A DNA stretch of 37,017 nt, taken from assembly GCA_009602725.1 (NCBI GenBank), contig WELB01000002.1, positions 1,968,097 to 2,005,113 on the forward strand. The letters run 5' to 3'. Position 1 is the stretch's first letter. Each line of letters opens with the position of its first letter. This stretch comes from Spirogloea muscicola (Eukaryota; Streptophyta; Zygnematophyceae; Spirogloeales; Spirogloeaceae). Positions 3,716-37,017 of the stretch are shown here, in pieces. The notes under the pieces were generated by a model. The model searched no databases. It was given only the letters and a program-made list of their open reading frames with translations, and had not been told where the DNA came from. The translations under genes and the position numbers were made by a program.

Positions 3716-4112
3716 TGGCCCCTTAGCCAGCTCATAACCCGGTTAACAGGACATTTGTCAGGCTAGAGTTGGCCTCCCTTTTAGTTTCATGAGCACCGCG
3801 CGCCTTCTCCCTGGGCCCCGGGGCAGCTTCCTTCCTTCCTGCCTGCCTTTGGGTCTTGTGTGCTGCTACCGCATGCGTTTATCTATGTCCCTACAGCGGT
3901 CCCAAGCGCTCGCTTTGCACCGCCGCGCCGGTCGCGCCCTTGCAGCAGCCTCTGGGTTGCGCAGCGGGGTTGCTCTTCCCTTGCATTTTTGGCTTTGGAT
4001 ATTGTCCATGCTTTTTGGGCTGGCTTGGCCAGCCTTCTTCTCTAAGGGCTCGCCATTCTCTTCTCTTCCTCCCCTCAGCTCGTCTGACTTCATACTGCTG
4101 ACACGGGGGTAC
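3716..4112 (+). pseudogene. LINE-like copy interrupted by two nested insertions
   Basis: This begins with a module (CCCCTTAGCCAGCTCATAACC, then GGCCTCCCTTTTAG) also present at 20227-20320 and, inverted, at 36430-36515. It continues with the frame CYRMRLSMSLQRS, ALHRRAGRALAAASG and SSSDFILLTRGY (3867-4111). Compared with the minus copy at 24095-24256, it carries an extra segment at 3980-4069. After LLTRGY it is interrupted by a minus-strand element (4113-4385) and seems to resume at about 4386 with its own 3' tail. Confidence 0.6.
3973..4069 (+). mobile_element. ~83-bp hairpin unit with 7-bp target duplication
   Basis: CTCTTCC occurs at 3973-3979 and again at 4063-4069. The segment between is absent from the homologous copy at 24095-24256, where CTCTTCC occurs once. 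The insert carries TTGTCCATGCTTTTT, hairpin 4017-4034 and GGGCTCGCC. The same unit recurs in reverse orientation at about 25755-25830, 36325-36390 and 36530-36600. Confidence 0.6.
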
Positions 4113-4385
4113 GAAGAAGTGGCTCTCCCAATGGGGGCAAGGGCTGTGAGAAGCCAGCCCGAAAAGAATTGACAAGGTTCGAAGGGGCCAAAGTACGAGC
4201 TAAGCAGCGACTGCGGGGCCTGAAGAGGCTATGGCAAACGGGGGAGGATGGACCACTCAGAAGTTACGAGTGAGGAGCCTCACTTCCGACAGACTAGCTG
4301 CCGGGAAACTATCAAAGTATCAAAGGAAACTATCCCCCTGACGAAAGCCGGAGGCCGCAGCGAGAGCACGGCCAGCACAAGAAGA
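4113..4385 (-). mobile_element. 5'-truncated minus-strand LINE-like tail nested in another copy
   Basis: Read on the minus strand, the frame at 4383-4257 gives the RALAAASGFRQGDS…FPAASLSEVRLLTRNF-stop tail. It includes a ~20-bp internal tandem duplication near 4310-4335. The 3' tail follows (4256-4113) with hairpin 4160-4141. Short AAGAAG repeats flank it (about 4114 and 4380), but that motif is also part of the element end, so a target duplication is not proven. Confidence 0.6.
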
Positions 4386-4570
4386 GCGCCCTGTCTTCCT
4401 AGCCTGGTGGCTCCGTCATGAACACCTGTATGCATCTGGCTGGCCTCTTGCAGCCGCTCTTTTTATATCAGCAGCCGCATTCAATCTGTTTCTGGGCAGG
4501 ACCTCTTCAGGTCAAGGAAAAGCGCACGGGGCGCATGAAATGAAAAGGGAGGCCAATTCAAGCCAATTCA
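4386..4570 (+). mobile_element. Separated 3' tail of the interrupted copy
   Basis: GCGCCCTGTCTTCCTAGCC, then GGCTCCGTCATGAACACC and a hairpin (4438-4455) match the reverse complement of 23990-24094. There the same tail directly follows the intact LLTRGY-stop. A GCGCATGAAATGAAAAGGG motif shared with other copies lies at ~4531-4550. This block ends about 200 bp before the XPB start. Confidence 0.55.
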
Positions 4571-4777: not shown

Positions 4778-7700
4778 ATGAAGGCCAAGCGGGCCCTGGC
4801 CGGCAACGGTGAGCTCCCTGGCTCTTCCATGTCACCAGCCACACGGCCCTGGCAGTCGCATCCATGTCATATCTCGTCAGGGCTGCGCTCACGCCGTAGG
4901 TCCCAGCCGGCTGTGCCACCTCAAAGTGACGGCGCAGCCCCGGCTCACCGCTTCCCGACTCCTTGCATCTCCTGGCAGGTGCCGCCGGCGTCAGCAAGCG
5001 GCCGTCCTCGCAGGTGGCGCCCTGCACCATGCTGCACACTGCATGCATACAAGGTCCCCTCATGTACCAGGTCGCCTGCTCCTGCCTCACATGCCGCCGG
5101 GTTCTCCTGCGAGCTCAGGGAGGAGGATCAGTGGCTGGCAGCGATGCGGAATTTGAGGAGGATGTGCTCGTTGTGGAGGAGGAATTCGAGCAAGGTAAGT
5201 GCTTCATTGCTGTCCAACTGCAGGCGCAGTTCTGCTTGTCTAAGTGGTTTCCACCAGGGCTCTGGGTCACAGCGATGGTCCATGACGCCTTCTGAGGCTC
5301 AGGTAAGAATTGAGGGGCAGAATCACTCATAAAAGGGCAATTGCTACTCATCTCCTGCCAGACGAAATGGTTGAAGTAGGTTCCTCTTCTTGTGGCTTGA
5401 CTGATGCTGGGTGGACTGATTGCCCGGGTCAGAGGTGAGTATATCCCTCTTAGGCTTACGCACCCATAGGCAAAGATTTAGGATACTATCTGATCTCATC
5501 AACCGGCCTGCAGTCGATGATAGGGAGGGGGACGAGTATGGGAAGGATGCAGAGCAGGTGGTCAGGGCTAGGGACTTCTCGAAAATGGAGCTGAAGCTTG
5601 ACCATGCGTTGCGCCCTCTGTGGGTCTGCATCGATGGCCGCATCTTCTTGGAGACATTTTCTCACTTGTACAAGCAGGCATACGACTTCCTCATTGCCAT
5701 CGCCGAGCCTGTTTGCAGGTGCATGATTCAGATGGCCTTTGCTTCTTGCACTAGCACAGACCCCTGCCGGCCCCTGCAGTGCATTCATTTGCACGGTTGC
5801 AAAGAGGGCCAAGCAAGGCATGGTTGTCCCCACTTGACATGCGCTTGTCTTTAACCCTGCTGTCAGGCCAGAGAGCTTACACGAGTACAACTTGACCCCC
5901 CATTCTTTGTACGCGGCCGTCTCAGTGGGACTCTCCACAGAGACCATCATCACAGTGCTGGACCGGTTATCCAAAACCAAGCTGCATAGTGAGATTGTGT
6001 CCTTCATCAGGAGCTCAACCCAGAATTATGGCAAGGTTAAGCTTGTCCTGCAGCGTAACCGCTTTTTCGTGGAGTCCCCTTATCCAGACGTGAGTGGATG
6101 CAACCTGCTTTTAGCTCTACTAATAGTATGACTAGAGATTCAAGCACGTAAAAGTTACATGCCATTTACATTCCAGCTATTTAGTGATGCTGACACTGCA
6201 AGCCCGCCGTTGTCTTCATTGGAAATTGGAGAAGCTGAAGTGGCAGCACTCATAATATGTCTTTGTACACCGTCTTCACAAAACCTTGTGTCCACTGTAT
6301 GGCGTGAAGGTCCTGAGGAAGCTGCTACAAGATGATACTATTTCTCGAGCACGCATAACCGCCTCTGTAATTGTGAGTGCAGCTCATCGTCAGCATATTA
6401 AGAGGCAACATACTTTGCTTGATTTGGCTTGTGCTTGTTGACATGAGCACCAATCTTAAACGTCCTGTTCCTGTACTGATCGAGACATGTCTACTCTCCA
6501 TGTGATGTGTCTTGCCAAGGGTGGACTTGTTGCAAGCATCCAGGTGAAGTCTATGTCAATAGGTCTGCTCTGCAATCACAAAAGTGTGCATGTCATTTGT
6601 GATGGGCAGCCTGGCAGCAGGCATGGAGATGAAGCTTTCACAGTAAGCAAGGCTCCACAGGAAGCTGCAGGAGCTGAGAAAGATCTGCTGGAAAGTGATG
6701 AAGCTGCTGCTGCTGTCCTGGAGGCACAAGAGACGAACATGCATTCCTTTGAGATTGACCCTGCGCAGGTGACATGTCTCTGCCACAAGGTCGTTTCTCA
6801 GTGTATCTTGGATAGTGCTTCTCCTGCAGACTATGGGAATGCAAGGATGAGCAGCACGTCAGTTGCTGCAATTGACTTTAGTTCCTTGAAGAAACAACCA
6901 AGGCAGGACCCTGCAGTCACCTTGGCTGAGTCAAATGTGTGGGGGTTACCTTGTAGGTTGAGCATGTGAAGCAGCGATGCTTGCCTGGTGCTTTGAATCA
7001 CCCTATGCTGGAGGAGTACGACTTCCGAAATGATACAGTGAGCAATACCAAAGCGGATACCAGGTCACTTGCACTTGGTTGCTGTCAGCCAGCTGTCAGC
7101 CACTTGCAGACTGAGAGCTCCATTCCTTAGAGGACTTGCCCTTTATGGACTGGGTACAGCATTGAGGTACTCCATTTTCTCTGGCAGGTCAATCCTGATC
7201 TGAATGTTGAGCTCAAACCACACGCTCAGCCACGTCCATATCAGGAGAAAAGCCTAAGCAAGATGTTTGGCAATGGTGAGTGTTTGTGACACAATGCTTT
7301 GGAAACCTTGTCTTGTGAGTAGCTAGGCATTATTTCATTGGATTGGCCATAAAAGCTGATGTTACTCTTCAAGGTGACACGCTGGACCATGAATAACACT
7401 CTGTTTACACTGCCTAGAATCTCAATTAGATGAAAATTGTATTGTGCAGGAAGAGCACGGTCTGGTATTATAGTGCTGCCTTGTGGAGCAGGAAAGTCAC
7501 TGGTTGGAGTTTCAGCAGCAGTCCGCATCCGCAAGAGCTGCCTGGTCCTGGCAACAAATGCTGTGTCTGTGGATCAGTGGTGCTTCCAATTTAAGCTCTG
7601 GTCCACTGTGAGAGACGATCAGGTCAGAGCAGAGCTGTGCATTGATGCGAATTATCTGTCCTTAGTCTGTGTTTGATAAGAAGTTGGATGTTGGTCTGAG

Positions 7701-18589: not shown

Positions 18590-18660
18590 TCGCACTCCGG
18601 CTCCCATTCCTTTGGGCTGGCCTCTCCCAGCCACCACTTAATCTGGCCGCGCTTGCTCCG
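18590..18660 (+). mobile_element. Element 3' tail variant with hairpin
   Basis: The hairpin at 18614-18632 (GGCTGG/CCAGCC) is followed by TTAATCTGGCCGCGCTTGCT. The sequence is nearly the same as 345-412 and 25040-25112, and inverted at 24585-24655. Confidence 0.6.
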
Positions 18661-19279: not shown

Positions 19280-19626
19280 CGTAGAGCGCTTCGATCTCAT
19301 GCGCACCGCTGCCTTCTACGCTGCCGTTCTCGATATATCCCTCCAGCGGTCCATGGCCCACGCTTTTCACCTGGCGTGCTGGCCGTGCTCTCACTGCCGC
19401 CTCTGGCTTTGTCAGGGGTATAGTTTTCCGGCAGCTAGTCTGTCGCATTTGAGGCTCCTCACTCGTAGCTACTGAGTGGTCCATCCTCCACCCGTTCTGA
19501 CATAGCATCTTCCGGCCCCTCCGTCACTGTTGCTTTAAGCCCCTCCGTCATTTGGCCACTTCGACCCTCTGTCAATTCTTTTCGGGCTAGGCTTCTCACA
19601 GCCCTTGCCCCCTCTGGGAGAGCCGC
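19280..19626 (+). pseudogene. LINE-like remnant with 3' tail
   Basis: Peptide fragments in shifting frames (DISLQRSMAHAFHL, then SFPAASLSHLRLLTRSY-stop near 19468) match the common C-terminus. The tail, with hairpin 19584-19604, ends GGGAGAGCCGCTTCTT. Confidence 0.55.
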
Positions 19627-19689
19627 TTCTTTTAGTTGCTATAGAGTGACTCATCCTACCCCAGATTTTTGAGATTAAGCTTCTGGCTT

Positions 19690-19880
19690 CTTCGTACTTT
19701 GGCCCCTTAGAACCTTGTCAAATTCATCTCGGGCTGGCTTCTCACAGCCCTTGCCCCCATCGGGAGAGCCACTTTCTTTCTACGGATGCCCTGGTACAGG
19801 AATGGCGAAGTGCCTCGGCTCGGCCACCCCCTTGTCTCATTCTTTCCGGGCTGGTTCTTCACAGCCCAGATGCCCATTGG
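19690..19880 (+). mobile_element. Two further element 3' tails
   Basis: Hairpins at 19731-19750 and 19848-19867 share the GGGCTG/CAGCCC stem and the preceding TTGTC and TTC-rich sequence. The first is followed by CCCTTGCCCC and GGGAGAGCCACTT. Confidence 0.5.
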
Positions 19881-20042: not shown

Positions 20043-20540
20043 CGCAAGCCATTGTTGCATGCTGTAGAATGCGACTATCATTAAGTCTACAGCGCTCCCA
20101 GGCACTCGCGATACACCAGCGTGCTGGTCGTGCATTAGCCCAGGCTAATGGCTTCCGTGGTGGTGCGTTGGCGCCTCAGTATAGCTTGTCAGATATGCAT
20201 GTGCTCACTCGGGAATATTAGTGTCCCCCTTAGCCCAGCTCATTACCCAGTTAACAGGAGGATGATCTTGACGCCTAGAATTGGCCTCCCTTTCAATCTC
20301 ATGCGCACCGCCCGCCTTCTCTCACTGATGCGCACCGTGCGCCTCCTCTCTGACTCTTGCTTTGCCTTCACCCTCCGCCCTGGCTCACAGCAAGACCATC
20401 CTCCGCAGTGTCTCACCCAGCCCGGGCAAGCCAGGAGAGATGGCGCGCGCTGCGCATGAAACAAAAGGGGAGGCCAGACCAAGCCAGCACACTGTTTGTA
20501 AGAAGAACCAGGAATCCGAGTGGGTATGAGGTAACGGAAC
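20043..20540 (+). pseudogene. LINE-like remnant with intact C-terminal frame
   Basis: An uninterrupted frame (CCRMRLSLSLQRSQALAIHQ, RAGRALAQANGF, SLSDMHVLTREY) ends at TAG 20219-20221. The following tail contains AGCTCATTACCCAGTTAAC and TTGGCCTCCCTTTCAATC, then GCGCACCG repeats. It is shared with 3719-3830 and, inverted, with 36430-36515. Confidence 0.6.
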
Positions 20541-21729: not shown

Positions 21730-23658
21730 TCAGGATCCACAGCAGCTGGATGCTGTTTTAGGAGCACCACCTGTCCCGGCGTTTGGGAGGATGATCTTGA
21801 CGCCAGGCCCTGGCGCCGCCCCCTGTGTGCTGTCCTCTGCAATCAAGGCCTTCCGACTGACAATCCTGCGCACCAGAACGAGCTGACGGCTGATCAGTCT
21901 GCGGATAGTACGCCAGCTTCCGGAAAGTGGACTGCAACAACCATATTGGGGTCCATGGTCTCCAGCCAACTTGGCTAGATGAATCTCAAACGCAATCTCA
22001 CAAATCTGCACGCCCACACTGCCGGAGGATGCAGCAACTTGTGACTGCAGCCACGCTGGGCGCGGCAGAGGAAAACAGACTTGCACTGACAGAGTGTAGC
22101 AGCTCAATGCAAGGAGAGGTGCACTGTGCACTTGCCTCAAGGGCCTGCAGAAAGCTCGTGCTCTGTGAAAGGTTTGCAGGTGTATGGATCGCACCTTGCA
22201 TGCAAAACAGGTGAGAGTGGACGGGGGCAGCTGATGAAGTACAGACTGACCTGTAAATCTCAGTCAGGACCATGGTGAATGCTGACTCCACATTGGTGCA
22301 TTCTAGTGCGGACGTCTCCATAAATGCAACCCCCTGCTTCTTTGCCAGGTCCTTTGCTTCGCTGGTCCCTACAGAACGTTGATCTGAAAGGTCCGACTTG
22401 TTGCCAACCAGCATGATGAAGATGTTGGAGTCTGCATGTGCCCGCAGCTCCTCTAGCCAGCGCTCCACATGCTCAAACGTGGCTCTCTTGGTCATATCGT
22501 AAACGACCATGGCTCCAACTGCACCTCTGTAGTAGGCGCTTGTCACTGCCCGATACCTGCAACAAGGAAATGATCTGTCAAGCATCAAGAATGCCTCTTG
22601 CGTGCCAAGCAGGACCTGAGTACCGGAGCCTGGTTTGTAACGTGTCAGCTCCACCTTGCCATGTCAAACTAGCTGTCTCCTCAACTGAAGCCGATAAGAA
22701 GAGACTCAGATACTGTTGCACATCAGCTTGTATTTTCACATGACACACTTACCAGACAGACAGCTACATTTCTGACGCCTGCGATTCGTTGCTCAATCAG
22801 AGGCAAAAACTACTCTAGCAGACTGTTTCTCAGCCTGCTTGTCCCAAGCAAGCCAGCCCGTCTTCGTGATGCAAAACCCTACCCCTTCATTACTAAGGGA
22901 GTAGGGTTGTATGACAGAGGCCATCTCTGGCATGTAGTGCAGGCTAAGGTACAGCGCAGCCAAATGGTATGCTCACGAGCCATGTTACAATCCTATATTG
23001 AGTAAGTCACCGGTGCACGCACATAAAAATCTGGAATGAAGTGCTGCGCACAGCAAGCAGCGTTGAGTGGGAAACCAAGCCCATTTCTTTGAGTTGGAAA
23101 GTAGGTCCTGTGAAGCTGCGGGATGACCACGCCGTGCTGACTGCAGACTGCAAGGCAGCAGATAATGCAGCCCGAGCATACTGTCTGAGGCGTGACTGGG
23201 AACCAGGTAGGACTTCTGACTGCCTTGTGGCAATTGAGATGTTGAGGCGAGTGCCGTCTCACCTCTCTTGGCCAGCAGTGTCCCAAATTTGAGCCTTGAC
23301 GACTTTGTTCTCCACGGTCATCGTCCTGGTCTGAAACTCCACCCCAATGGTGGCCTTGGAGTCGAATGCAAACTCGTTCCGAGCGAACCTCGAAAGCAGC
23401 TGCGATTTCCCCACGGCTGCAACCAGCAAACCCAGGACTTTTGAGGCTCCTCTAGTGGACGGCCAATCGTAACGGAGATAGCAACACTTCCTGCACTGCC
23501 ATGCAGACAAGCTCTGCATGTCCCCAATTTCGTAAGGGATTCCTTGACCTGCTCGATGGCGGATGCGTGTGCAATTAACAACCTGAGTCGCCAATGAGGA
23601 CGATCTTGAAGACATAGTCCACCTTCGGCTCCTGGCCGCCATACCCGGACCCCTTCAT
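21730..23658 (-). CDS. RABA: Rab11/RabA-family small GTPase
   Basis: A membrane-trafficking switch of the trans-Golgi/recycling route. Exons: 23658-23583, 23416-23263, 22556-22251, 21865-21730; phases 1, 2, 2; 223 aa, usual for the family. Nucleotide-binding motifs: GDSAVGKS (23-30, split by intron 1), DTAGQER (71-77), NKSD (129-132), ETSAL (157-161). The effector segment [11 protein letters not shown] and the [17 protein letters not shown] switch II region are typical of Rab11. QLLSRF and the KVDYVFK start resemble plant RABA4. [11 protein letters not shown] precedes a variable tail that ends SSCCGS, giving two cysteines for geranylgeranylation. The start is supported by the N-terminal match and length. 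Repeat DNA begins ~330 bp upstream. The assignment to Rab11/RabA is firm; the subclass is less so. Confidence 0.96.
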
Positions 23659-23989: not shown

Positions 23990-24256
23990 TGGAAGAGAAA
24001 GCGGCTGCTGATATGAAAGAATCGGCTGTGAAATGCCAGCCAGATGCATACAGGTGTTCATGACGGAGCCAAAGGCTAGGCAGACAGGGCGCCCTCAATA
24101 CCCCCGTGTCAGCAGTAAGAAGTCAGATGAGCTGAGGGGAGGAAGAGCAACCCCGCTGCGCAAGCCAGAGGCTGCTGCAAGGGCGCGACCAGCGCGGCGG
24201 TGCAAAGCAAGCGCTTGGGAGCGCTGCAGGGACATAGACAGTCGCATACGGTAGCA
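23990..24256 (-). pseudogene. LINE-like remnant with intact C-terminal frame and 3' tail
   Basis: On the minus strand CYRMRLSMSLQRSQALALHR, RAGRALAAASG and LSSSDFLLLTRGY run without break to a stop at 24095-24097. The 3' tail (24094-23990) has hairpin 24041-24024. This is the uninterrupted reference for the nested copy at 3716-4570. Confidence 0.65.
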
Positions 24257-24700
24257 GGACACCAGACCCAAAGGCAGGTTGGAAGAGAGCGAGGGAACGA
24301 AGGCGGCGCCGCTGGTGACGTTGTGGGCGACGGGAAGGGAAGCTTGTCCACAACACGAGAAGGTGGCCAGGAAGAGGCCAGCCCAAGAAGAGTGGACGAA
24401 GGCAGAGAGGTAAGCCCCACACACGGGGCTCCCCCTCGCGCTTTCCGGCCCCTTCGGCCGCTTGTCACTTTCTTCTGGGCTGGCATGTCATTCCCCATGT
24501 TCATTCTGTATAGACAGAAAGTGGCTCTCCTAAAGGGGGCAAGGGCTGTGATCAGCCGTTCGACCAGAATCGACAAGGTCCGAAGAGCAAGCGCGGCCAG
24601 ATTAACTGGTGGCTGGGAGAGGCCAGCCCAAAAGAATGGACAAGGTCTGAAGGAGTCGGAGTGCTAAGGACTGAGACAGCAGTAAGCGAAGGGGCCAAAG
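24257..24700 (-). mobile_element. Upstream element sequence and further tails
   Basis: Contains minus-strand tails with hairpins at 24544-24556 and 24611-24629 and shared flanks (GCTCTCC…GGGGGCAAGGGCTG, GCAAGCGCGGCCAGATTAAC). Confidence 0.45.
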
Positions 24701-24744: not shown

Positions 24745-25176
24745 CTAGTGAGGAGCCGCAAATCAGCAGGACTAGCAGCCGGAAAGCATCTTGTATCGGC
24801 GGCCTTTTCACAGCCCTCTCCCCCCGGGTTGCTTGCCCAGGTGTTCCGCATTCGGCTATTCATTTTCTTCCAACGGTCCCGGGCTCACGCAGTGCCATTG
24901 CGGGCAGGCCGCGCTGTGGCTGCTACTTCAGAGCCTTATCAGGGCGACGTCTTTCCGCCTGCTAGCTATCAGATTTGCATCTACTGATTAGAGGTCACTG
25001 AGAGTCCGCTTGCTGCTGTCTCAGTCCTTAGCACTCCGGCTCCTTCAGACCTTGCCCATTCCATTGGGCTGGCCTCTTCCAGCCACCAGTTAATCTGGCC
25101 GCGCTTGCTCTATCGGGGTGCCTCTTTTCCACCTGCAAGTTACTCCGACTTGCGGCTGCTGACTTGGGGTCACTAA
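24745..25176 (+). pseudogene. Two LINE-like remnants in tandem
   Basis: Frame 24854-24987 reads RLFIFFQRSRAHAVPLRAGR, AVAAT and FPPASYQICIY-stop, a diverged version of the common C-terminus. A tail with hairpin 25066-25084 follows. Frame 25117-25176 then reads GASFPPASYSDLRLLTWGH-stop, a second truncated copy. Confidence 0.5.
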
Positions 25177-25194: not shown

Positions 25195-25560
25195 AAGACT
25201 AGAGTCCCCCTTCAGTTGTGTTCTTCATTTTGTTAACTTAGCCCCTCTTATAGTTTTCATTGTTCCTTTACAACGGTGTACTGGCTTGCTTTGGCCTCCC
25301 TCTCATTTCATGCGCACCGCGCGCCTTCTCTCTCTCCAAGACTGGCCTTACTTCTCTGCTTTCAGGAGCTTCTTCTGCCCCCACTTGCCTAGGGCTTCGG
25401 GTTATGCAGCCCCCTTTCCGACCTTGGCCACCCTTTCATTAAGAAGTGGCTCTCCCAATAGGCGCAAGGGCTGTGAGAGGATGTGGCTCTACCACTGGAG
25501 GCAAGGGCTGTAAGAAGCCAGCCCGACAAGGATTGACAAGGGGCGAACTACGAAAGGGGC
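25195..25560. mobile_element. Element-derived 5' module and duplicated minus-strand tails
   Basis: 25195-25330 matches 31025-31110 (GAGTCCCCCTTC, TTTACAACGGTGTACTGGC-like) and ends in the GGCCTCCCT…CATGCGCACCG module. 25441-25530 holds two partly repeated minus-strand tails, the second with hairpin 25505-25524. Confidence 0.45.
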
Positions 25561-25689: not shown

Positions 25690-26040
25690 CTTTAGGCCCA
25701 TCCGTCATTTGGCCCCCATTGTCTTTTCGGGCTGGCTTCTCGCAGAACAAAGTGCTCGCCCTGAGTGAAGGAGGGCTAGCAAAGCCAGCCCAAAAAAGAA
25801 TGGACAATGTCCAAATCCAAAGGAAAAGGTGCCGGAAAAGGACTACACTAACAAACACGAGATGATGCAGAGGGAAGCACAGTACCCGCGAGTGAGCAAC
25901 AGCAAGTCAGAGTAGCTCGCTGCAGGGAAAGAAAGAGGCACTCCGCCGAGACCCAGAGGCAGCACAGCCATAGCACGGCCTGCTCGCGTGTGGACGGCGT
26001 GGGCTAGGGAGCGTTGAAACGAGACCACCAGGCGCATGCG
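25690..26040 (-). pseudogene. Minus-strand LINE-like remnant and hairpin unit
   Basis: Minus frame 26037-25843 reads MRLVVSFQRSLAHAVHTRAG, then FPAASYSDLLLLTRGY with no stop but a CASLCIISCLLV extension. That extension also ends the copy at 36710-36627. Bases 25755-25830 hold the same hairpin unit as the 3980-4069 insert, in reverse (hairpin 25773-25791). Confidence 0.5.
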
Positions 26041-26422
26041 GAATTACTAGGCGAGAGAACCGGCGGCGTCGAAGCCGGGCCCACTGGCGTTGTTTCATGC
26101 ACACCGCGCGCGTTCATCTTTCCTAGGTGCACATGGCGAGCGCGGGGGAGCGGGAGCGAGGCTGCCCGCTGGCCGCCAAGTAGCTCCACTTTCGGCACTA
26201 GCCTTTGCCCGAACTCTCCCTCTCTGCGCCTGGGCAACGCAGTTGGCTTGGATTGGCCATCATTTCATTCCATGCGCGGGGGCGCGCGCGCGCGTCTTCC
26301 CCCCCCGTCGCAGGTGATGGTATTTGCCGCCGTACTTTGGCAGCTCAGGCCCTCCATCCCTCACTAACACACCCCCTCCTCCGCGGCGGGGCCCCCCGCC
26401 GGCCCCGCCACCGCGCCGCCGC
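26041..26422. other. Upstream region of the BTB gene
   Basis: Contains short matches to the GCGCACCGCGCGC element motif (about 26098-26112), then GC-rich unique sequence up to the gene start. No promoter element is recognised. Confidence 0.3.
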
Positions 26423-29400
26423 ATGCTGCGCCCGCTGCCTGCGGCGGCNGGGCGCCGCTGCGGCCACAAGCCCCCGGCCCCGGCCCGGCGGCCGCGTGCG
26501 CCTCAACATCGGCGGCACCGTCTTCGAGACCACGCGCTCGACGCTGGAGAGCCATGTGGCCCACCAGCAGTCCCTCTTCGGCGCCATGCTGCACCAGCAC
26601 TGGCAGGCAAGCCCTCTCAGCAGCTGGCCGTGCCCTTGGCCGGCAATGGGGGGCCTCCTGCCTCCGGACACCTCCTCGCAGACCGTTTACTTCAGCCGCG
26701 AAGAGCCGCGAAGCTGCGCTTTGCCCCTCGTTGTGCGGCAGGTGGGCCGGCTGCTGATGGAAGCACAGATTCAATCATTGAGGACCTCTAATGGTCACTC
26801 TTGGAGGCCTCTGATCTTCCTCGATGCTGGCAGCAAGAAACATGCGTCTAGGGCTCACGGCTCAGCCCTGCGTTTCGTAGCCGAGGGGCGGAGTGAGGGT
26901 GCTGCAGCACCTGTGTTCCTAGCTGTGCAGCATGAATCTGACAAGAGCCTTGTGCTCGCGCCGTGTGCTGGGCAGACTTGCAATTCAGAAGAGGAGTACT
27001 TCATTGACAGGGATCCGGACGTCTTTGGCGAGTTGCTGGCCTTTATGCGCACGGGCAGGCTGCGTCGGTCTGCCAGGGACTCTGTCGATCGAGAGGAGCT
27101 GCTCCTGGAGGCCGACTTCTATGGCCTGCTGCCTAGCATCCAGGTTCCCCGTGCACTCTTGACTCCAGTGTGTGACCAGAGAAGCGAGCTTTGCATACAG
27201 GAAAGATGTGTTGAGTAGCTGTCTCTGGCCGGGAAGCACCCTGGAAGAGGAGTCAGGCAGTCTAGGTCAAGAGGGCTCACTAGGTGCATCTTGCGATCAC
27301 TGCTGTTGGTCGTAGTCCCGTGTCAAGTTCATGAGTGGATGTCAGAACTCTGGTGCTACCTTTGCTTGCAGGCAGAGCTGGCCCCTGGGTCCCTAGATGG
27401 GAACGCCATGGAGAGAGTGCGTAACATCGTCCCAGGGGGCAGAGATGTGTGCTCAGCATCTGCTGCAGGGCCAGATGGCTCGCTGCACATTGCTCATGGC
27501 TCCAAAATCACCGCATATGATGCAAACCTCCAGCGAAGTAACACGCTTGTGACCGACCATCCTTCCATTGACCTCCTCCATCGCGTCTCAGGTGAATAAG
27601 AGATCGTGTTGTAAACAACAAAGTGGCTACCATCTCCAACCCTTGCCCAAGTCATTGATGTATGCACGATGCATGACTTCCTCTGCAGGCTTGCTAAGTC
27701 AGGCTTCGGTGCAGGATGCCTGCAGCGAATCCTGCAGCAAAGCGAAGTGTTGTCACATATGCGGCACTTGCCTATTCCCTCCTAACAAAGTCTTGTTACT
27801 CTCTAATTTCTAGATTGTTTGCTATTTGGAAGGGAACAGACAAGCACCTTGCTGCCGGTGGGAATAAGTGTGCAGGCCTGCATATATACAACACCAGTGA
27901 TGGCTATAAAGCAAAGAAAATTGTGTGGCAGTTTCAGCCTACCTCCAACCGTGTCGCCACACATGTACAGGCCCTCGCCAGCTCCACCGATCTTCTCTTC
28001 TCCTCCTTCGAGTCCAATTCCCAAAGCCAGAGGTACTGACAAGCTACCGATGGCTGTAGAAAAAGGTGTGCTTGGGTTCAGGGTTGTAGCTGTCGTATGG
28101 GCACAGGCCGTGCTTTGGCAGCATCTATCACTTGCCTGGTCGATCTCCCTTGCCTAATTTGGGTCCTGATTGCTCCCCTCTTGCGGTGGCTGTTGCAGTG
28201 CGCTTCTAGTACTAGACAAGAGCACTCTGCAGGTACATTATGAGCTGGAGAGACAAGGCGGCTCAGAACTTCTGTTGGCATCTCAGGCAGCTGTCAGGCT
28301 GCAGTGGCTGCCCATCCATGGCCTTTTGCTTACTGCGGCTGTGCGGCGACAAGTCCGTAATTCCGCCTCCTTCCATGATGGTTTCCTGCGATTGCACGAC
28401 CTTCGCAGTCGCGAGAAGGTCAATTGCCAACCACGTGTCAATTTGCATGCCTCAGACATGCTGCATGTGCTCAATGGGTGTCTGAGTGCAGGCGAGACAT
28501 AGCACTTTGAATGAAGCTCTAATTTGTGATGATTCCACTTTGATCTGCACATACAAACGGACCAATTATACTCCCTGTGTGCTGGATTTCGCACAGATCT
28601 GGGAATGGCAAGAACCTGGCATTATTGGTATCCAGGACTCATTCACAGACGTCGTTGCAAATGAGGATCTCAACCTCCTCTTTAAAATCTCAAAGTCATC
28701 TGGTGGGCTCAGGCATCTTGCAGCTCTTTCTGTGAGCCGCTCCTGAATACTCAGTGGCCAGCAGAGGCATGCTAGCCTCAGTACAGGACTGCAGCAGCTT
28801 CTCTGCTCACTCCAAACATAGCTTGGTTGTTGTGACTGCCCGACTATGGCTGTGCGACTGTGCTGATGAGCTGTCTTAAGGTCTCTCGTTGACAATGGGT
28901 CTACTTTGTTGTCGTGTCAGGCATGCTGGAGATCATTGATCTGCGAAAGATGCTAGCAATAGCAGCAGGAAACCCTCCTTCTCCTGGCCAAGGTGACTTC
29001 GCAGCTACTCTTCGTGCCAGAGCCCCCAAGGCCGCACATAGCTTTCCCACCTTTCTGCGGGTGACTTACATGCTACATGCTCCTTCGTGACATGCTGGAG
29101 CAGCGCCTGGGCAGAGTCGTTGGCGTGTCTTGCACTACCCTAATGCCGCCGCCCATCCAGTCACTGTACAGAGGTGAGCTCTTATTGAGGATGATCACGC
29201 AAGGGCAGGGAGCTTTTGCTGAGGTGCAGATGTTTTTGGTTGGGTCATCGCAGCTTTGCATTTGTTTTCCCAATACTTCACAGATTGTTAGCCAACCTAA
29301 GAAGACGTTCTGAGGACAGATGACATGCTGTTTGCTGATCTGCATTCTTTGGTGGGCTTGATGTTGGCAACCCCACAATTAGCCCCAAGCCTTCGCCGCA

Positions 29401-30989: not shown

Positions 30990-32650
30990 GGGGCTTGTGG
31001 GCCATTGACCATCACTCTTGGAACCCAGAGTCCCCCTTCGGTTCTGTTTTCCGTTTACAAATTAGCCTCATTACATTTTTCTTTGTTCTTCTTACACACG
31101 GTGTGCTGGCTTGTTTTGGTCCATTTTGTTCTAGTCAATGCAGACCGCAACCCTTGAGGAGTAATTTCGTGCTTTTCGCACCTTCTGGCCCTGTCAAATT
31201 TTCTGAAGTCCAGAGGGCTGGCCGCTTACAGCCATTGCCTTAATTTGGAAAAGCTGTTGCCTCTCTCCCACACGAGAGGGCTCGCATCGCAAGATGCAAC
31301 GGATCCACTATTCTGTCCCTAGTGAGATGACAAGCCTCCTCAAGCATCCGTCAAGCCGCCAAGGCAGCCATCCGCCCACGACACCGTCGAATTTCGGCGC
31401 AGGCGAGATGCCCTTGGCCAGCCAGAAGAGAGAAGGCGTGGGCGGTGCGCACAGCAGGAAATAGAGAAAGACGCTTCCAGGAGAGGGCGGTGGCTGGGAG
31501 AGGCCAGCCCAGAGAAAGAATGAACGAAGGGAGGCCTAGCCGAGCCAATATCATGATCGTGCACGAGGCAATGGAGGTGCAGACATTGGGGCTAGACAAG
31601 CACCAAGAAGGGAGGGAGAAGGCGCGCGATGCGCATGAAAGAAAGGGAGGCCAAGCTTCGAGATACACCAAAGAAGCCCCAGTAAAGCTAGACCTTGGAA
31701 ACCACATCGCAGTACACTGTGCATGCGGAGGCATAGGAGATGAAACAATGAGGCAACACAGGGGAAGCCCTAGGCCAGGAGGGGCTGAGCTCAGGATTAG
31801 AGCGATAGCACGGGGGTGCATTCTAGCACCCACAAGAGCGAGGGCCAAAAGAAAGGCGCGCAGTGCGCTTGTGATGAAAGTGAGGGCAACCTGAGCCAAT
31901 GCACGAACTAAGCAAGAAGCCTCGGAAGTGTCAAGAGTGGGACAACATATAGCGGAAGAAGTGGCTCTCCCAATGGGGGCAAGGGCTGTGAGAAGCCAGC
32001 CCGAAAAGAATTGACAAGGTTCGAAGGGGCCAAACTACGAGCTAAGCAGCGACTGCGGGGCCTGAAGAGGCTATGGCAGAACGGGGGAGGATGGACCGCT
32101 TAGTAGCGGAAGCCTTAGGCTGAAGAATCAGGGCAAGGCTGGCTGTAGTACCCACGAGAAAGCACCAACAACACAGGCGAGCTAACTTGGTGCGCATGCC
32201 ACGAAACCATTGGCCTGGCTTAGTTTGCCGCCCATGGGGCTGAAAAGGGGCCAGGGCATGCGAGCGCAGCGAGAGCCGCATCCAGTATCAAGCGACCACT
32301 GCCTCCCGTATGCTGGTGTTGGCCAAGCTGCGAGAATTGCGGGGGGCATCAGCCTCCGAGCAACCGCCCACTTAGGCAGCGGTGCGGCAGAAGTCGAGAA
32401 AGAGCTCAATTATAAGGGGGGCGATGAAAGAAAGAATGTGGCTCTCCCAACTCGGCAAGTGGGAGCCGAAGGAGTGGAAGCCAGTGCGCTCATGCAGAGA
32501 AGACCGTATCGAGAGGGGGCCAGCCCGAAAGGGAATGGACGAGGGCCCAAGTGGCCGACGAAGCGCTTCACACATGAGAAGGGCGGGGCAGGCGAGAGCA
32601 GCACGAGTACGGCGAGGGCCAGCCCAGAGAGAGTGGACAAGGGCGCCCGC
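30990..32650. mobile_element. Retroelement block upstream of PSAL
   Basis: 31025-31110 matches 25195-25280. Hairpins: 31216-31233 (+), 31492-31510 (-), 31983-32002 (-). 31610-31680 has the GCGCATGAAAGAAAGGGAGGCC motif in reverse. 31955-32090 is nearly identical to 4113-4250 and to the complement of 105-240. Fragments near 32518 and 32617 keep only GGCCAGCCC plus the AATGGAC/GTGGAC flank. The block ends within ~50 bp of the first candidate ATG of PSAL. Confidence 0.55.
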
Positions 32651-36200: not shown

Positions 36201-36620
36201 CAATAAGGTCCTGTGTGCACGCTTTTGATGAGTACTCGGGAAGAAGAGTAGGAAGAGGACAAGCTTCACGTAGCGAGGCGATGGCTGTGAAACGCTGCGG
36301 GAAAGAAGAAAGAGGGGAGGGCTCGCTCATAGAAAAAGAGGGGCCAGCCCAGAAAAGAACGGACATTGTCCGCAGGCCTCAAAAGGCCACAAAAGGCCAC
36401 AAAAGAACTCTTCCGGCAGAGAGAGAGAGAGAGGAGGCGCACGGTGCGCATGAAATTGAAAGGGAGGCAAATTCTAGCCTTACATATGTCCTGTTACCTG
36501 GGTAATGAGCTGGCTAGGGGGAGGGCTCGCCCATAGAAAAAGAGGGGCTAGCAAAGCCAGCCCAGAAAAGAATGGACATTGTCCGCAGGCAGCAAAAGGC
36601 CACGAAACAGTGCCAGGAAT
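36200..36620 (-). mobile_element. Element modules in reverse orientation
   Basis: Two hairpin units with GGGCTCGC…GAGGGGC…CAGCCCAGAAAAGAA and GACATTGTCCGCAGGC lie at 36325-36390 and 36530-36600 (hairpin 36545-36563). Between them is the inverted CATGCGCACCG/GGGAGGC module (36430-36515). AAAGGCCAC is tandemly repeated near 36385, and a GAGA run lies at about 36418-36433. Confidence 0.55.
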
Positions 36621-36626
36621 GACAAA

Positions 36627-37017
36627 CTACACACCAAGACACGAAATGATGCAGATGGATGCACAGGAACCACGAGTGAGCAACAGCAAGGCAGAATACC
36701 AGTGTCCCCCTAGGGGGGACACTAATCCCAATGGGGGCAAGGGCTGTGAGAAGCCAGCCCGAAAAGAATTGACAAGGTTCGAAGAGAGAAGGGCTCGCCC
36801 ATTGAGGATAGGGGCTGGAAAAAGCCAGCCCAGAAAAGAATGAACAAAGGACGAGAAGGGGCCAGGGGAAGTACGAAGAACAACAAGCACAGAAAAGAAA
36901 CGAAGCAGCTACGAAGCACTCAGTAACCCCTGCTAAGCAGCCTCAGGTCAGAGAGACTGGGTTCCTGGAAGCGGGTCCCCTGGCCAGAGCCAGAGGCAGC
37001 AGCGAGGGCTCTGCCTG
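36627..37017 (-). pseudogene. LINE-like remnants and tails running off the window
   Basis: Minus frame 36710-36627 (LLLLTRGSCASICIISCLGV) matches the 25843-26037 copy. Tails carry hairpins 36741-36760 and 36811-36831. 36785-37013 is the inverted match of 19043-19273 and contains the …SFSDLRLL-type C-terminus. It continues past the window end. Confidence 0.55.

Follow-up and report, generated by a model that had tools for sequence, protein, structure and literature searches.

In the accessible part of one description (PMC5678591), proteins of R2-type LINEs are characterized by a zinc finger, a reverse transcriptase, a CCHC motif of the form CX2-3CX7-8HX4C, a PD-(D/E)XK motif, and a KX2KY motif. 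R2-type elements are described as generally, although not universally, site-specific, and their 5′-truncated copies arise by incomplete first-strand synthesis (PMC7650587, in excerpt); the 5′-truncated LINE copy is an already known kind of insertion. R2-like elements of the German cockroach make no strict choice of site (excerpt of PMC7650587), and 'stringent' LINEs carry stem-loops in the last part of the 3′UTR (PMC3747384, accessible sections). Here, we describe an 83-bp segment of the Spirogloea muscicola genome that is very probably a copy, extremely 5′-truncated and presumably dead, of LINE-A, our name for a dispersed non-LTR retrotransposon. The segment lies within a window (the whole stretch of DNA analyzed) of 37,017 nt from contig WELB01000002.1 (1,968,097–2,005,113 of the forward strand; assembly GCA_009602725.1), and coordinates below are those of the window.

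The corresponding inverted repeats of the window, between a copy near 3.9 kb and another near 24 kb, are 91 per cent identical over 145 nt and 96 per cent identical over 49 nt. When the 3.9-kb copy is aligned to the reverse complement of the 24-kb copy, it has 83 additional bp at 3980–4062 (plus strand), with 138 and 48 bp alignable on either side. An exact CTCTTCC borders this insert on both sides (3973–3979 and 4063–4069, plus strand). The heptamer is single in 286 nt of the 24-kb copy, where it occupies the corresponding point (24141–24147, minus strand), and the chance of a given heptamer recurring at a fixed point is approximately 1/16,384. The extra segment and the 7-bp target duplication reported in the first-pass annotation are therefore both real; the span of 3973–4069 given there takes in both heptamers. 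Homology of the insert to four LINE-A references starts at 3984–3990 and ends at 4049–4061, and at least the first four nucleotides of the insert (3980–3983) are unmatched by references of the family. Within the insert are two hairpins of the LINE-A 3′UTR, a small one (TGGAT-ATT-GTCCA; 3996–4008, plus strand), seen in the sequence and in fold predictions, and a larger one (GGCTGGC-TTG-GCCAGCC; 4018–4034, plus strand), seen in the sequence.

We searched the 153-Mb assembly with positions 3960–4090 as the query, which yielded 42 listed matches, with the best 40 of 641 candidates scored. Apart from the window's own, most listed matches cover approximately query positions 27–102 at 82–93 per cent identity. 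In an all-against-all comparison with flanks included, the common sequence breaks off abruptly at the right (3′) end in nearly all of the 39 other places, and the constant 3′ end that the first-pass annotation had proposed looking for is thus found among the 39 compared copies. Leftward, 32 of these 39 best copies run on into LINE sequence and then drop out successively. Twelve long copies can be aligned well over the upstream part, which translates as the end of a protein, SLAQVF...SYSDLMLLTRGY-stop. With these 57 aa as the query, 150 of 17,406 candidates were listed as matches; some very long open frames among them are runs of N (two loci checked, L040 and L042). Locus L041 has an uninterrupted frame of 1082 aa with the SLAQVF...SYSDLMLLTRGY end, followed by a 3′UTR with the same two hairpins and the same end point as the insert, beyond which flanks differ between copies. 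In its sister copy, L102, the larger hairpin starts 90 nt past the stop. Seven further places match the 1082-aa protein at 98–100 per cent without an internal stop, and such near-identical open-frame copies suggest that LINE-A was recently active. Because an uninterrupted-frame LINE carries the same two hairpins and the same end point, the 83-bp unit is, as judged from sequence comparison, the 3′-terminal part of the 3′UTR of an abundant LINE, without a 5′ end of its own, which bears out the LINE origin put forward earlier.

The first-pass annotation also had the unit recurring at three further places of the window. All three are genuine and lie on the minus strand, but two of them exceed the unit, being longer LINE-A copies with a coding end and a hairpin-bearing 3′UTR (25754–26080, 83 per cent identical to L043 over 340 columns, and 36521–36688). 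The third (36317–36394) is a weaker LINE-A 3′ end, with 75 per cent identity over 64 columns and a 52-nt repeat in common with 36556–36607; by eye, the loop and the greater part of one arm are missing from its hairpin.

The LINE-A protein (P0001) contains a reverse transcriptase (PF00078 RVT_1; E = 1.5e-13; 51.3 bits against a cut-off of 29.6) and, near its N-terminus, one zinc finger of the C2HC type (CX2CX12HX3C). We aligned four protein copies, of which the other three are 71–81 per cent identical to the first and one is without the N-terminus. In this alignment, the [YF]ADD motif is kept (A492-D493-D494 invariant), and C827, C829, H842, and C846 are invariant with the spacing CX1CX12HX3C. 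Also invariant in all four copies are restriction-like-endonuclease motifs, namely R896-x-D898-L, D913-V-V-T, and K943-E-x-K946-Y947, which point to a putative PD-(D/E)XK-type endonuclease with KX2KY downstream of the CCHC, assigned by motif only. Searches with the LINE protein of endonuclease profiles (Pfam), PDB, and NCBIfam returned no endonuclease match, and the Pfam search of the 1082-aa frame with E up to 1 returned no apurinic-type endonuclease.

In its long ORF, N-terminal zinc finger, reverse transcriptase, candidate CCHC, and PD-(D/E)XK-like C-terminus with KX2KY, LINE-A resembles R2-type LINEs as far as the accessible part of PMC5678591 describes them, and its copies are 5′-truncated like those in the excerpted PMC7650587. 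Unlike the generally site-specific R2 group, LINE-A is dispersed, its copies being found on many contigs with differing flanks; its CCHC, CX1CX12HX3C, also departs from the CX2-3CX7-8HX4C given in that part of PMC5678591, and one C2HC finger is seen. In lacking a strict choice of site, LINE-A can be likened, by description only, to the cockroach elements of the PMC7650587 excerpt, which belong to another host. As in the 'stringent' LINEs of the accessible sections of PMC3747384, hairpins lie in the last part of the LINE-A 3′UTR and are kept in short copies, a retention that is partly due to choice, since these copies were sampled by the hairpin itself; unlike those LINEs, LINE-A encodes restriction-like-endonuclease motifs and has no 3′ poly(A) at its common 3′ end. 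By analogy with the LINEs with 3′ stem-loops in the same sections, LINE-A may require its hairpin. A search of the literature on restriction-like-endonuclease LINEs in green algae and algal genomes found no description of the LINE-A family.

The small hairpin is also predicted in the L102 3′UTR, there as TGGAC-ATT-GTCCA. The predicted best folds of the L102 3′UTR and of the 25.7-kb and 36.5-kb copies contain an 8-bp hairpin (z = -2.7, -1.7, and -2.3); in the predicted best fold of the 3.9-kb unit the larger hairpin is absent and z is only -1.3. Other repeat families of the window end in a similar hairpin, GGGCTGG...CAGCC. Such hairpin-ended repeats are located at 89–241, 466–597, 4113–4244, 19575–19774, 25490–25555, 31954–32106, and 36713–36844, with more at 344–411, 18590–18657, 24586–24653, and 25042–25109. 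Some of them adjoin coding ends that by eye resemble LLTRN/S-x-stop. One kind of 3′ hairpin thus seems, from these sequence resemblances, to be common to a set of related LINE families.

For the distribution of truncation points, copies were sampled by an exact match to the hairpin and hence were not chosen by their upstream sequence. The assembly contains 159 exact matches to the GGGCTGGCTTGGCCAGCC form of the hairpin (83 forward and 76 reverse) and 287 to the GGGCTGGCTTTGCCAGCCCCTCTTTCT form (131 forward and 156 reverse). We measured 114 copies (74 of the first 100 listed GGGCTGGCTTGGCCAGCC places and 40 of the first 42 listed GGGCTGGCTTTGCCAGCCCCTCTTTCT places), of which 102 were left once 10 lying at assembly gaps and 2 in antisense orientation had been removed. 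An enlarged set of 122 adds 15 places from the unit search, four long loci, and the window copy, with six GGGCTGGCTTGGCCAGCC places left out. Among the 102 copies, the sequence kept before the hairpin is at most 57 nt in 38, 58–87 nt in 2, 88–260 nt in 40, and longer in 22. Of the hairpin-bearing insertions sampled, about one in three therefore measures approximately 105 bp or less (38/102; 42/122). The 38 short copies have 28 different starts, compared to 28.1 (SD 2.0) under random placement, and the densest 12-nt stretch holds 15 starts against 12.6 expected (P = 0.11); in the enlarged set there are 32 different starts against 30.1 expected. The window unit, whose homology extends approximately 29–33 nt upstream of the hairpin according to the reference used, is an ordinary member of this short-copy distribution. 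An apparent pile-up of truncations 166–173 nt before the hairpin was also considered and rejected, as it falls mostly at assembly gaps.

The stop rate is raised 1.6-fold within 57 nt of the hairpin relative to the 203 nt that follow (P = 0.035). Hardly any copies fall at 58–87 nt (two of the 102, with printed flanks identical to each other; 3/122 in the enlarged set). A constant stop rate alone does not explain this excess and the near-empty interval. RNAs consisting of the 3′UTR only, produced by cleavage or internal initiation and used in trans, would yield a distinct hairpin-only class, in which starts would mark RNA ends and not polymerase drop-off. On the strength of the modest excess of very short copies, we give this origin a small chance.

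Slightly less probable still is the proposal of the first-pass annotation that the hairpin unit is a minimal SINE-like passenger. Such a passenger would be a LINE 3′UTR-hairpin RNA with a transcription of its own, mobilized in trans by the LINE protein. The share of copies of approximately 105 bp or less (38/102), the raised stop rate, and the nearly missing lengths would agree with it, as would the L104 case, in which a related family has left a hairpin-only insert bordered by a 7-bp duplication. However, the starts of the short copies are scattered in a random-like manner, and most of the best copies carry more LINE sequence, as noted above. Moreover, the upstream flanks of 46 short copies, one of them the window copy, lack a head in common: within 10 nt of the junction, no sequence recurs in more than 3 of the 46 (L011, L092, and L159, whose flanks have another repeat in common), and otherwise two pairs agree (L060–L084 and L135–L167). 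Scans of the window for tRNA and Rfam matches gave none at the thresholds used, which also counts against a SINE. A SINE with a fixed head is rejected on the basis of the 28 starts in 38 short copies and the missing common head. Recognizing the apparent 'mini-SINE' as a LINE tail avoids naming a false new class of elements.

The first-pass annotation had named a loss of the segment from the 24-kb copy as the observation that would overturn an insertion, for example if other copies of the subfamily all carried it. We searched the 153-Mb assembly with positions 24000–24285 (minus strand) and scored the best 40 of 2162 candidates. The 42 listed matches comprise the window's own copy, one match that starts at query position 140, past the site, and 40 empty places. 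The insert is absent from all 40 other scored places that cover the host site (39 at 100 per cent and 1 at 98 per cent identity), which form a near-identical young set, with no equally old empty sister of the approximately 9 per cent-diverged 3.9-kb host copy in the sample. Because all 40 scored sites are empty and the target is duplicated, the change is an insertion: the 3.9-kb copy gained the segment and the 24-kb copy represents the empty state. A precise loss of the segment from the 24-kb copy and the rest of its subfamily has nothing in its favour and is contradicted by the same 40 places, by the flanking heptamer, which is duplicated here and single in the empty copy, and by the identity of the segment with the end of another element; we regard it as extremely improbable. 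A MITE or foldback DNA transposon, which would suit the compact size, the hairpins inside, and the short target duplication, is just as improbable, since by eye the two ends of the insert are not reverse complementary to each other and the hairpins are internal, longer copies contain a reverse transcriptase, and length varies on one side, with a variable 5′ end and a common 3′ end.

The insert thus combines the features of a 5′-truncated LINE copy: a common 3′ end, a variable 5′ end, an empty site, and a short target change. Such a truncated LINE-A copy was presumably made by target-primed reverse transcription. The LINE-A protein would recognize the hairpin-bearing 3′UTR of LINE-A RNA and nick a pyrimidine-rich site in a resident copy of another LINE, LINE-B. 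Reverse transcription, primed at this nick, would stop after approximately 80 nt, just upstream of the two 3′UTR hairpins. The CTCTTCC duplication would result from a second nick at a distance of 7 bp. These observations point to an abundant, dispersed, apparently recently active group of LINEs with restriction-like-endonuclease motifs in a GC-rich eukaryote, in which the resident LINE copies, as empty sites already in place, lend themselves to work on target choice and early stopping.

We looked for similar insertion marks at other copies, using 99 of the 114, with gap-adjacent and antisense copies still included. Across the junctions, 24 of the 99 have an exact repeat of 7 bp or longer, compared to 6.6 per cent of mismatched flank pairs, and 36 of the 99 have one of 6 bp or longer, compared to 16.6 per cent; the remaining 75 copies have no junction repeat of at least 7 bp. 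Among the sequences compared, mostly LINE loci, 26 of the 80 copies whose flanks were usable have an empty counterpart. The target changes that these counterparts imply lie between a duplication of 12 bp and a loss of 25 bp, a range set by the limit of 25 bp either way that we accepted. No clear base preference was seen past the 3′ junction. In L092, L159, and L011, truncated LINE-A tails follow a repeat ending ...GCGCGCCTTCTCTC with little or nothing in between, and the repeat also occurs in the window at approximately 3755–3810, 20275–20326, and 36426–36477; these joins could reflect either a preferred target or template-jumping chimeras. In L060, L084, and L096, LINE-A tails have inserted into, or next to, the hairpin region of a different LINE family, and the junction sequence is common to both elements.

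The host of the insert is, from its reading frame, the coding end of LINE-B, because the frame of the empty site (coding strand AGC GGG GTT GCT CTT CCT CCC CTC AGC TCA TCT GAC TTC) reads by eye to SSDFLLLTRGY-stop, an ending that is identical in L104. By eye, the insertion point lies within the 15th codon before the LINE-B stop. On the plus strand, the host coding end occupies 3835–3972 to the left of the insert (aligned to 24148–24285) and 4070–4110 to the right of it (SSDFxLLTRG..., aligned and read by eye), and the rest of the host 3′UTR aligns at 4383–4482. Between these parts lies a second, independent insertion (4111–4382, minus strand), the 3′ end of another hairpin-ended family (LINE-D), which is absent from the 24-kb copy. 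The homologous LINE-B copy without the insert, identified by alignment and genome search, spans 23997–24285 on the minus strand. This LINE-B end and those at 39 other places are 100 per cent identical on many contigs, apparently the product of a very recent burst.

In L023, a longer LINE-A-type copy is joined to LINE-B no more than approximately 2 nt from the 4062/4063 site, a junction which suggests that this LINE-B site has been used at least twice. The L104 insertion (approximately 4896–4963 of that locus) consists of approximately 54 bp of the hairpin end of the related family, located at the LINE-B stop and bordered on either side by TTATTGA (by eye). The window also holds open frames that we take to resemble a Rab-type GTPase (21998–22663, minus strand) and a BTB/potassium-channel tetramerisation-like protein (26202–27218, plus strand).
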